Of a DNA stretch of 64,000 nucleotides, positions 30,722 through 58,715 are shown in pieces; the stretch's first letter is position 1, and each line of letters starts with the position of its first letter. A program made the translations under genes and the position numbers. This DNA comes from Candidatus Zixiibacteriota bacterium (GTDB taxonomy: Bacteria > Zixibacteria > MSB-5A5 > UBA10806 > 4484-95): contig JAGGSN010000210.1 in NCBI GenBank assembly GCA_021159005.1, positions 1 through 64,000 of the forward strand, read 5' to 3'. A model generated the notes under the pieces. The model saw only the letters and a program-made list of their open reading frames with translations, had not been told where the DNA came from and did not search any database.

Positions 30722-32167
30722 TCATCCCTTAATATTCGCCAATGGCAGAAAATGCGCCACCTTTTTCGATATCCCCAGATTGTGAACAGCATCGACAACC
30801 ATATCAACATCCTTATAGGCAAAACCAGCCTCCTCAGCCAAGCCTTTCATCGAGGCGGCTCTTACTGTTATGCCCTGTTTCGTCATCTGGTCTTTAAGCT
30901 CATGGCCGCGTATTTTCCGCTTGGCGGCGGCCCGCGACATAAGCCGCCCGGCGCCATGAATAGTACTGCCAAAAGTGATATTCTCAGCTTGTTTTGTGCC
31001 CACAAGCAGATACGAACCCGACTGCATTGAGCCGCCAACCAGCACCGGTTGCCCTAAAGGGCGATATTTTTCAGGCAGATCTTTATTGCCGGGGCCAAAA
31101 GCGCGAGTGGCGCCTTTGCGATGGACAATCAATTCCTCTAGTCCTTGGCCGGTATCATATTTTTCAATCTTGGCGATATTGTGGGCGACATCATAAATAA
31201 GATTCATTCCGAGTTCCTCAGCCGACTTGCCTAATATCTTTGCAAAGCCTTCTCTTACTCTATGCATAATCACCTGACGGTTGACAAATGCTGTATTGGC
31301 GGCGGCAGCCATGGCGCTGTAGTATGCCTGCCCTTCCAGCGAATCGAATGGGGCGCAGGCAAGCTCGCGGTCGTTGGTGCGGATGCCATACTTTTTCATC
31401 GCCGCGCCGAAACTCTTAAGGTAATCCGTGCCTATCTGATGTCCGAAACCGCGCGAGCCGCAGTGTATCATAACAGTAATCTGGCCAGGCTGGTCGATTC
31501 CCAAAGCCGAGGCAACAGATTTATCGCATTGCTCATCGAAAGTAACTTTCTGCAGTTCTAGATAATGATTGCCCGAACCGAGAGTGCCGACCTGATCCAA
31601 GCCGCGTGTTTTAGCCTTATCGGAGACATTATCGGGATTTGCGCCGGGGATTTTGCCATTCTGCTCGGTGAATTCAATATCGCTATCCCAGGCATAGCCC
31701 TTTTTCAGACACCAGGATGATCCCTCTACCATAAGCTTATCAAATTCAGTCCGGTTCAGCTTTATGATGCCCTTGCAGCCAACTCCGCTGGGCACAAGCT
31801 GATATAGCAGGTCAATCAGTTCCGTAATCTTGGGCTTAATTTCTTTTTCGGTGAGATTGGTTCTTATCAATCGGACGCCGCAGTTGATGTCAAAGCCGAT
31901 ACCGCCGGGCGAGATAACGCCGGTCTTGGTACTGAATGCCGCCACGCCGCCAATCGGAAAGCCATACCCGCGATGGCCATCCGGCATGCAGAGCGCATAA
32001 CGCCGTATGCCCGGCAGGCAGGCAACATTGGTTATCTGCTCGATAACGCCCTCATCAAGGTTATCAAGCAGTTTTTTCGAGGTGATTAAACGCGCGGGGA
32101 CTTTCATCCCTTGCTTTGACCCTTTGGGAATCTCCCAGGTGTAGTCGTCAATTTTAATTTTTTCCAT
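30722..32167 (-). CDS. rtcB: RtcB tRNA-splicing / RNA-repair ligase
   Basis: A 481-residue GTP- and Mn-dependent ligase joining 2',3'-cyclic phosphate (or 3'-phosphate) ends to 5'-OH ends. Metal and nucleotide motifs are intact: GFDINCGVRL (about 89-98), HCGSRGFGHQIG, YDVAHNIAK, HRKGATRAFGPG and GSTIHGAGRLMSR, whose His (near 403) accepts GMP. Length matches the family. The cofactor protein archease lies upstream at 32496-32987 in the same direction, separated by 328 bp of repeats. Likely role is RNA repair, since no intron-containing tRNA is seen here. Confidence 0.96.
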   Translation of the reverse strand: MEKIKIDDYTWEIPKGSKQGMKVPARLITSKKLLDNLDEGVIEQITNVACLPGIRRYALCMPDGHRGYGFPIGGVAAFSTKTGVISPGGIGFDINCGVRLIRTNLTEKEIKPKITELIDLLYQLVPSGVGCKGIIKLNRTEFDKLMVEGSSWCLKKGYAWDSDIEFTEQNGKIPGANPDNVSDKAKTRGLDQVGTLGSGNHYLELQKVTFDEQCDKSVASALGIDQPGQITVMIHCGSRGFGHQIGTDYLKSFGAAMKKYGIRTNDRELACAPFDSLEGQAYYSAMAAAANTAFVNRQVIMHRVREGFAKILGKSAEELGMNLIYDVAHNIAKIEKYDTGQGLEELIVHRKGATRAFGPGNKDLPEKYRPLGQPVLVGGSMQSGSYLLVGTKQAENITFGSTIHGAGRLMSRAAAKRKIRGHELKDQMTKQGITVRAASMKGLAEEAGFAYKDVDMVVDAVHNLGISKKVAHFLPLANIKG

Positions 32168-32249
32168 ATTATCCCCTATTCCATATTAATCATTTAATAG
32201 TAGGAGCTTTCCAGACCCGATATTTTCCAGCATTGCTAATGTTATTCCG

Positions 32250-32292
32250 CCCTCAGGATGTCATTCGCTTAGGCTCATTTCCATCCTGAGGG
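32250..32292 (-). repeat. CTCAGGATG palindromic element, reversed copy
   Basis: Arms CCTCAGGATG and CATCCTGAGG. Read on the minus strand it aligns with the copies at 32341 and 32651, sharing CCTCAGGATGGAA, GCCT.AAGCG and ACATCCTGAG, which shows insertion in the opposite orientation. Confidence 0.75.
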
Positions 32293-32308
32293 ATGTGAAA
32301 TTTGACGC

Positions 32309-32333
32309 GTAGGGGCGTATTGCATACGCCCTC
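32309..32333. repeat. GTAGGGGCG hairpin repeat
   Basis: GTAGGGGCGTAT, loop, ATACGCCC. Related copies lie at 34704-34728, 54869-54893 and 58691-58715 with the same stem in either orientation, and with another loop at 59744-59777. All are intergenic. Confidence 0.75.
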
Positions 32334-32340
32334 TTCTGTT

Positions 32341-32390
32341 ATGCCTCAGGATGGAAGGACATCTCAAACGGACGATATCCTGAGACCGAA
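32341..32390 (+). repeat. CTCAGGATG palindromic element, intergenic forward copy
   Basis: Matches the copy inside archease (32651-32700) at about 45 of 50 positions with no gap. Arms CTCAGGATG and a one-mismatch CATCCTGAG enclose a loop of about 24 nt. Confidence 0.85.
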
Positions 32391-32407: not shown

Positions 32408-32484
32408 ACTCTGGTTACCAAGCGGCGCTTGGTAACCAGAGTAAAGCGGCGCTTGGTAACCAGAGTAATTGGTAACTTGAGTAA
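32408..32484. repeat. GGTTACCAAGC hairpin, 1.5 tandem copies
   Basis: A complete hairpin ACTCTGGTTACCAAGC / GCTTGGTAACCAGAGT (32408-32442) is followed by GGCGCTTGGTAACCAGAGT again and a decayed GGTAACTTGAGTAA. This looks like local slippage or nested insertion. Confidence 0.8.
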
Positions 32485-32495
32485 TTCTCATCATC

Positions 32496-32987
32496 TTACA
32501 AATCCAATATCACATGACCGCTATAGCCGCTGTTGGTTTTCCTCACGCTCAATTTATGATATGTAACTGCTTTTACATCGGTTCTCAAATCATGTTTTTT
32601 AATGTCGATATACTCACCGGTTGCTTTGCATTTAAGCTTATAATTACCGCATGCCTCAGGATGGAAGGACGCCTCAAGCGGACGACATCCTGAGTCCGAA
32701 TTACCGCTTATCTCGATATCGAATTGCTTGAAAAATATCTTCTCTACATCTTTTATATAGATTAACTCCGCCAAAAAGGCAAACAGTAAATCCTCGACAG
32801 TCTCGGCATCAACAGCGAACTCGACTGTCTCTTTCGGTTCCACCTTTGCGGTATCGGTCATCGCCTCGAAAGACGCTATGCCGCAGACCGCGAACAGTTC
32901 CTCAAGCGAATCGCCATAAGCCTCGAACTCGAAATCGGCGAAGGCGCCTGCCTCGATTATTTTGTATTTGGGTTGTTTGTGCATCAT
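32496..32987 (-). CDS. Archease with an in-frame palindromic-element insertion
   Basis: A 163-residue activator of RtcB that promotes its guanylylation. Family features are FADFEFEAYGDSLEELF near the start, VKAVTYHKLSV and the C-terminal VILDL. Typical archeases are about 140 residues. The excess lies at residues 96-115 (NSDSGCRPLEASFHPEACGN), in a loop between two core strands, and is encoded by a copy of the CTCAGGATG palindromic element (32651-32700) that also occurs outside genes. Reading frame and the metal-binding Asp residues on both sides remain intact. No good Shine-Dalgarno precedes either ATG (32987 or 32984). Confidence 0.9.
   Translation of the reverse strand: MMHKQPKYKIIEAGAFADFEFEAYGDSLEELFAVCGIASFEAMTDTAKVEPKETVEFAVDAETVEDLLFAFLAELIYIKDVEKIFFKQFDIEISGNSDSGCRPLEASFHPEACGNYKLKCKATGEYIDIKKHDLRTDVKAVTYHKLSVRKTNSGYSGHVILDL
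32651..32700 (+). repeat. CTCAGGATG palindromic element inside the archease gene
   Basis: Same 50-bp sequence as the intergenic copy at 32341-32390 (about 45 of 50 identical), here within codons 96-113 of archease. Both the arms and the central GGAAGGAC..CAAGCGGACGA are present. The element carries no stop in the used frame. Confidence 0.88.
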
Positions 32988-33050: not shown

Positions 33051-33452
33051 TTAATCAATGATATCAGCTATCAGACTATATTTCAGCTTAATTTCTTTTA
33101 TATGCTTATCGTGGCGACGTATATTAATTATTGATCTTATTATAAGATAGAGGCCTAAAATGACCAAAGAAACATTTATTATCATCAAAGGCACAAATAG
33201 ATGCATTATATGAGCAGCGTCATAATATTTGGAGGTAGCTATCAAAAAACTAAGCACTGATATGGGTATTGCAAACATGGCAATTCCGGTGCGCAAAGAT
33301 GCCAATGAAGTTCTCTTTTCTGCCAAAAGTAATTGAACCTCATTAATAATGATACTTTTAGGCTTATGCTTGTCTTCCTGAACGTCTTTTGATTTTAAAC
33401 TCAACGGGTTTTCATTTAAATCCATAGTACTCGTCTCTGATTTATTTTCCAT
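33051..33452 (-). CDS. DUF202-like small membrane protein
   Basis: A 133-residue protein. The first 45 residues are polar and Lys/Ser-rich. LLLAEKRTSLASLRTGIAMFA resembles the DUF202 signature (LaeeRt.lAwlRTgla), and two hydrophobic segments follow (about 66-84 and 95-118). The C-terminal tail is charged. Function unknown; DUF202 domains occur in small bacterial membrane proteins and in yeast vacuolar transporter chaperones. AAGGA lies upstream of the ATG. Confidence 0.75.
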   Translation of the reverse strand: MENKSETSTMDLNENPLSLKSKDVQEDKHKPKSIIINEVQLLLAEKRTSLASLRTGIAMFAIPISVLSFLIATSKYYDAAHIMHLFVPLMIINVSLVILGLYLIIRSIINIRRHDKHIKEIKLKYSLIADIID

Positions 33453-33468
33453 TTTATCTATCCTTTAT

Positions 33469-33518
33469 ATGCCTCGGGATAGAAGGACTCCTTAAACGGA
33501 CAACATCCTGAGGCGGAA
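33469..33518 (+). repeat. CTCAGGATG palindromic element, diverged copy
   Basis: Aligns with 32341 and 32651: ATGCCTCGGGATAGAAGGAC, then CTTAAACGGAC and ACATCCTGAGG. The left arm has two changes. It lies just upstream of the DUF202-like gene start. Confidence 0.75.
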
Positions 33519-34703: not shown

Positions 34704-34728
34704 GAGGGCGTATGCAATACGCCCCTAC
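34704..34728. repeat. GTAGGGGCG hairpin repeat after comF
   Basis: GAGGGCGTATGCAATACGCC followed by CCTAC. It is the same as the copy at 32309 in reverse orientation, 38 nt past the comF stop, so it may end that transcript. Confidence 0.75.
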
Positions 34729-54868: not shown

Positions 54869-54893
54869 AAGGGCGTATGCAATACGCCCCTAC
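54869..54893. repeat. GTAGGGGCG hairpin repeat
   Basis: AAGGGCGTATGC then AATACGCCCCTAC. Same orientation as 34704 and 58691. Confidence 0.75.
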
Positions 54894-58690: not shown

Positions 58691-58715
58691 GAGGGCGTAT
58701 GCAATACGCCCCTAC
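58691..58715. repeat. GTAGGGGCG hairpin repeat
   Basis: GAGGGCGTATGCAATACGCC then CCTAC, between tldD and the PfkB gene; 44 nt beyond the PfkB stop on the minus strand, so a possible terminator. Confidence 0.75.

Follow-up and report, generated by a model that had tools for sequence, protein, structure and literature searches.

A palindromic element translated within archease is probably an intragenic REP of a REP-RAYT system in the Zixibacteria

How does a palindromic repeat come to be read as protein inside archease, the activating partner of RtcB-type RNA ligases? The locus lies in a window of 64,000 nucleotides from a Candidatus Zixiibacteriota bacterium. A preliminary description of it proposed that a 50-bp repeat with an intergenic near-copy adds 20 residues to the enzyme, in the manner of the Rickettsia palindromic elements (RPEs). 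That the repeat is read in frame is borne out by an ORF that is open over all its codons and clearly matches the Pfam archease family, and the likeness of 32651-32700 to 32341-32390 holds at the number of positions claimed. The added residues are real as well, while their number had to be corrected when the borders were redrawn. The unique element is 48 bp long and sits between two perfect copies of a 9-bp direct repeat, so the net insertion, one repeat together with the element, amounts to 57 bp, or 19 codons, and adds 19 residues rather than 20 (Table 1). The 9-mer has just these two occurrences on the plus strand of the window, and the peptide stretch at the insert reads SGNSDSGCRPLEASFHPEACGN. 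An assembly artefact is unlikely, given the copy's unique sequence and the clean repeat at its borders.

Table 1. Positions of the archease insert, its neighbours and related copies (window coordinates unless a contig is named)
Feature	Position	Strand	Remarks
rtcB-like RNA ligase gene	30722-32167	-	481-aa ORF downstream of archease; named by eye from sequence
Further element copy, opposite orientation	32247-32295	+	Intergenic archease/rtcB; 61.2 bits, model R1
Copies of second palindromic family GTAGGGGCGTATTGCATACGCCC	32309-32331, 34706-34728, 54871-54893, 58693-58715
Closest relative of the element	32341-32388 (match 32341-32390)	-	Intergenic archease/rtcB; 45/50 identical; nearest family member
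Archease gene	32496-32987	-	163-aa ORF; Pfam Archease E 2.2e-37
Left 9-bp direct repeat AATTACCGC	32642-32650	.	Perfect copy
Palindromic REP-like element in archease	32651-32698	-	48 bp; arms CTCAGGATG / CATCCTGAG; in frame
Right 9-bp direct repeat AATTACCGC	32699-32707	.	Perfect copy
Further copy, same subfamily	33468-33517 (match 33469-33518)	-	42/50 identical; 56.5 bits
Composite insert in thiamine pyrophosphokinase gene	L049 about 1428-1530; G000:C219:2627-2730		Pfam TPK_catalytic

The segment is peculiar to this archease. Searches over relatives gave archease matches in 97 of 147 genomes, with a single match in the host genome itself, and the length of the site was compared across the fetched relatives and a scan of named genomes, two misaligned or truncated rows being left out. 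The stretch across the site spans 50 residues here, as against 30-35 in the 105 others among the 106 archeases measured. The nearest relatives (54-61% identity) continue across the insertion site without a break, and in three relatives of the same family, which have no insert, the flanks match at the junction (for example, VEIS-GNYSLYCKA in L011 versus IEISGN[insert]GNYKLKCKA here). The alignment that had been suggested as a check thus finds the segment absent, with clean flanks, from all the others sampled, and these 105 archeases rule out an old feature shared by archeases. The best named matches in the scan were Candidatus Zixiibacteriota. The host belongs to the Zixibacteria group, and its phylum differs from that of Rickettsia, as had been stated; the genus is represented by one genome.

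Structural modeling indicates where the extra residues would lie. An AlphaFold model (30 archeases) has a mean pLDDT of 85 and resembles the solved archeases 4n2p and 8btx, with a TM score of 0.87 on the target for the Pyrococcus horikoshii protein 4n2p. Its only internal low-confidence stretch, residues 98-113 with pLDDT < 50, sits between strands 84-94 and 116-126, and the insert is therefore modeled as an unstructured excursion of a β-hairpin turn at the surface. In human archease, Mn is coordinated by D51 and D178 and phosphate is bound by K156 and D178 (PMC10944509); in the alignment, the counterparts of these RTCB-activating residues (D18, K139, and D162) are all present. Both structural expectations of the preliminary description, a loop between core strands and intact catalytic surroundings, are thus upheld, and the predicted fold together with the retained residues points to a genuine archease.

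Inside the gene lies a member of a sizeable repeat family. Searches with arm patterns detected 13 genomic copies; the strand matches numbered 26 and 104, as opposed to 0 for a reversed-pattern control; the likeness of the archease segment to the family is far above chance. A covariance model, for which 19 copies were used, locates 77 distinct places once the strands are merged, and a few more come from a looser arm pattern, giving about 85 in 3.66 Mb. This count is drawn from searches and fetched stretches, which may have passed over copies whose arms are badly decayed. The archease copy scores 63.7 bits (E 2.8e-14) in this model, being itself one of the 19 copies from which it was built. Nearly all copies are intergenic, and a short palindrome dispersed in this way is what is expected of a REP. 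Among the 58 genomes searched, copies occur in all genomes but one of the order to which the window belongs, with one weak match in the rest of the class. The element has long outer arms (CTCAGGATG) and a variable inner hairpin. Its outer stem covaries (CG/GC/UA/AU at column pair 4-46 and CG/GC at pair 6-44), with a score of 0.224 compared with 0.139 for shuffled alignments, a value reached by none of 500 shuffles, which ignore kinship, nor by slid versions. The RNA fold of the element is about -18 kcal/mol, the archease copy lying only 1.6 sd below its shuffles. No GTAG/GTGG head is seen in the consensus TCGCCCTCAGG...CCTGAGGGATA. The start of the arm shows CCTC, CGTC, and TGTC; stem and tail are unlike those given in PMC3733652 for CGTC-tagged REPs, which have a CGTC (or TGTC/CCTC) tag, an 8-9 bp stem beginning with AT and a CCA tail.

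Other repeats share the neighborhood and the genome. The copy at 33468-33517 lies upstream of a small ORF (33051-33452) that itself precedes archease, and short tandem-like repeats, GGTAACCAGAGTAA / AAGCGGCGCTTGGTAACCAGAGTA, occupy 32415-32483 just downstream of the gene. A second palindromic family, GTAGGGGCGTATTGCATACGCCC, carries a GTAG head as in classical REPs and occurs about 109 times in the genome, with 54 exact copies, and a third, GGACGTACGCCAACCAC, has about 155 copies, sometimes in tandem (for example, at G000:C219:2627-2643, G000 being the host genome).

That the element is a REP is indicated chiefly by the genes that its copies flank. Y1_Tnp proteins (PF01797) adjoin element copies on contigs C134 and C117; the C117 protein is under the Pfam cut-off, yet it shares 60% identity with that of C134. 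Copies of the CCTCAGG type stand on either side of the C134 gene and copies of the GTCAGG type on either side of the C117 gene, the two stem subtypes pairing with two RAYT paralogues, and orthologues of these genes are found in G002, G005, and G006. When 20 RAYT loci were searched with the model, inverted copies were found on both sides of all seven close loci (in G000, G002, G005, and G006), an arrangement that the other 13, more distant RAYT-like loci all lacked. RAYTs have been described as always lying between two inverted REPs (PMC2817692). Two further Y1_Tnp proteins of 169 aa, close paralogues encoded on different contigs (G000:C134:4338-4610 and G000:C195:96798-97070), have no such bracket of inverted CTCAGGATG copies and are possible partners of the other repeat families.

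How often does such an element end up within a gene? Every fetched copy of the family was checked for an enclosing ORF, which takes up the proposed genome search for further coding copies and yields a second in-frame survivor. Two among about 85 copies lie inside conserved genes, in archease and in thiamine pyrophosphokinase. The latter gene carries an in-frame composite insert, about 36 aa long, made of two GGACGTACGCCAACCAC units and one CTCAGGATG element, which is missing from the thiamine pyrophosphokinase of a relative in the same family. The other overlaps involve gene ends, upstream extensions, or unsupported ORFs (those with no Pfam match, or left unscanned as spurious-looking), which argues against widespread in-frame insertion. 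Since the remaining overlaps are marginal or unsupported, the intragenic copies are rare survivors. Inspection by eye of 74 sampled copies of two other repeat families revealed none that lay clearly inside a conserved gene. One copy of the element, at G000:C191:123-171, comes just after an RHS-like core, HYYGARFMDPSLGRFITVDP, which ends in frame through the element and may be a truncated RHS gene.

The 9-bp repeat around the archease copy bears on how the element arrived. By shuffling, a repeat of at least 9 bp at this copy has a chance of about 0.002, corresponding to an expectation of 0.15 for 75 copies. The bases AA, two of its nine, are also present at the same place in neighboring copies, so the safe length of the repeat is 7-9. 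The other 74 copies are not above shuffles in a flanking-repeat test, and in a second test no fixed flank geometry stands out; these two tests, on copies with enough flank, revealed no general target duplication for the family. IS200/IS605-type transposases make no larger target duplications (PMC2817692). The repeat is neither a family trait nor expected of a Y1 transposase, and it could be explained as a by-product of repair, as a rare mode, or by chance. That the RAYT-linked palindromes of this order can integrate by a staggered cut duplicating about 9 bp, delivering in-frame peptides into essential enzymes, is unlikely; we know of no description of such chemistry for this transposase class.

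The origin that we consider very probable is that a REP, i.e., a short non-autonomous palindrome folding as a single-stranded hairpin, was copied or moved into the archease gene by a RAYT encoded elsewhere in the genome, and that the insertion was tolerated. If the insertion came with a duplication, the pre-insertion site would have been AGCGGTAATTATAAG, with a single 9-bp copy. Since 57 bp is a multiple of three, contains no in-frame stop and falls in a predicted β-hairpin turn, the gene would have stayed open and the protein would have accommodated the extra loop. That a RAYT did the moving is what the flanked loci suggest. The perfect 9-bp repeat and the missing classical GTAG tag speak against a REP-RAYT origin. 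The former would suit a MITE mobilized by an unseen DDE transposase with target duplications of 9 bp, for which the flanks of the RAYT genes would be coincidental landing sites. This explanation is unlikely: the rest of the family has no target duplication, an inverted copy stands on each side of every one of the seven orthologous RAYT genes, and in the host genome the stem subtype matches the gene.

Were archease a decaying pseudogene, its frame would owe everything to luck. In favor of this, a random insertion preserves the frame in one case out of three, and in any one frame about half of the family's members contain no stop. We nevertheless regard decay as very unlikely, because the ORF is wholly open, 54-61% identical to its family relatives, with all invariant residues kept, and it is the only archease copy in a 97% complete genome, next to an rtcB-like gene. 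To judge by its sequence, the archease with the insert is presumably made and active. The insert might also have been co-opted, the added loop or an mRNA hairpin tuning archease-RtcB function or expression, as the several copies around and inside the archease-rtcB region and the stability of the RNA fold could suggest. Co-option is the most improbable of these explanations given that the segment is unstructured in the AlphaFold model, that the archease copy folds little better than its shuffles, and that a single genome carries the insert, with no sign of selection on it. We infer that the insert of this REP is neutral.

Similar insertions have precedents. Di Nocera 2013 (PMC3733652) reports intragenic in-frame REPs in several species and phyla and counts RPE-4 and RPE-6 of Rickettsia among the CGTC REPs. 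As here, the GTAG/CGTC REPs treated there are short palindromes, mostly intergenic, with some in frame in conserved genes, where they add about 20-30 aa; RAYT genes are flanked by repeats (REPtrons) in the GTAG class, and several repeat families share one genome. The phylum and the repeat sequence are new in comparison, the GTAG tag is missing, and neither archease nor thiamine pyrophosphokinase is among the host genes named in its main text. The RAYT/REPtron of Nunvar 2010 (PMC2817692) likewise has a Y1_Tnp protein with an HFH motif between two inverted palindromes that are also scattered, and there too the subtype goes with the paralogue; unlike in that system, the palindrome here has no GT(A/G)G head, and its RAYT is a putative one. 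The analogy with RPEs drawn in the preliminary description holds in kind, in that a palindrome is translated in frame in a loop of a conserved, apparently functional gene. RPEs of about 150 bp, however, are frequent in genes (PMC10969869), whereas the present element belongs to a different phylum, is linked to a transposase, and lies in just two conserved genes. Because it is a REP with its own flanking RAYT genes, it is not best filed as an RPE analogue. Flanked RAYT genes and a missing GTAG head together suggest that the element is an intragenic REP of a REP-RAYT system, though not a classical GTAG REP.

In the literature searched, there is no report of intragenic translated REPs for Zixibacteria, and the phylum, the repeat family with its RAYT, and the host genes are new here. 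These findings extend translated intragenic REPs to a little-studied phylum, with a transposase pairing that can be traced, and the 9-bp repeat is a concrete clue to how REPs spread. Archease and thiamine pyrophosphokinase provide two clean natural insertions that bear on how enzymes tolerate loops encoded by mobile DNA.
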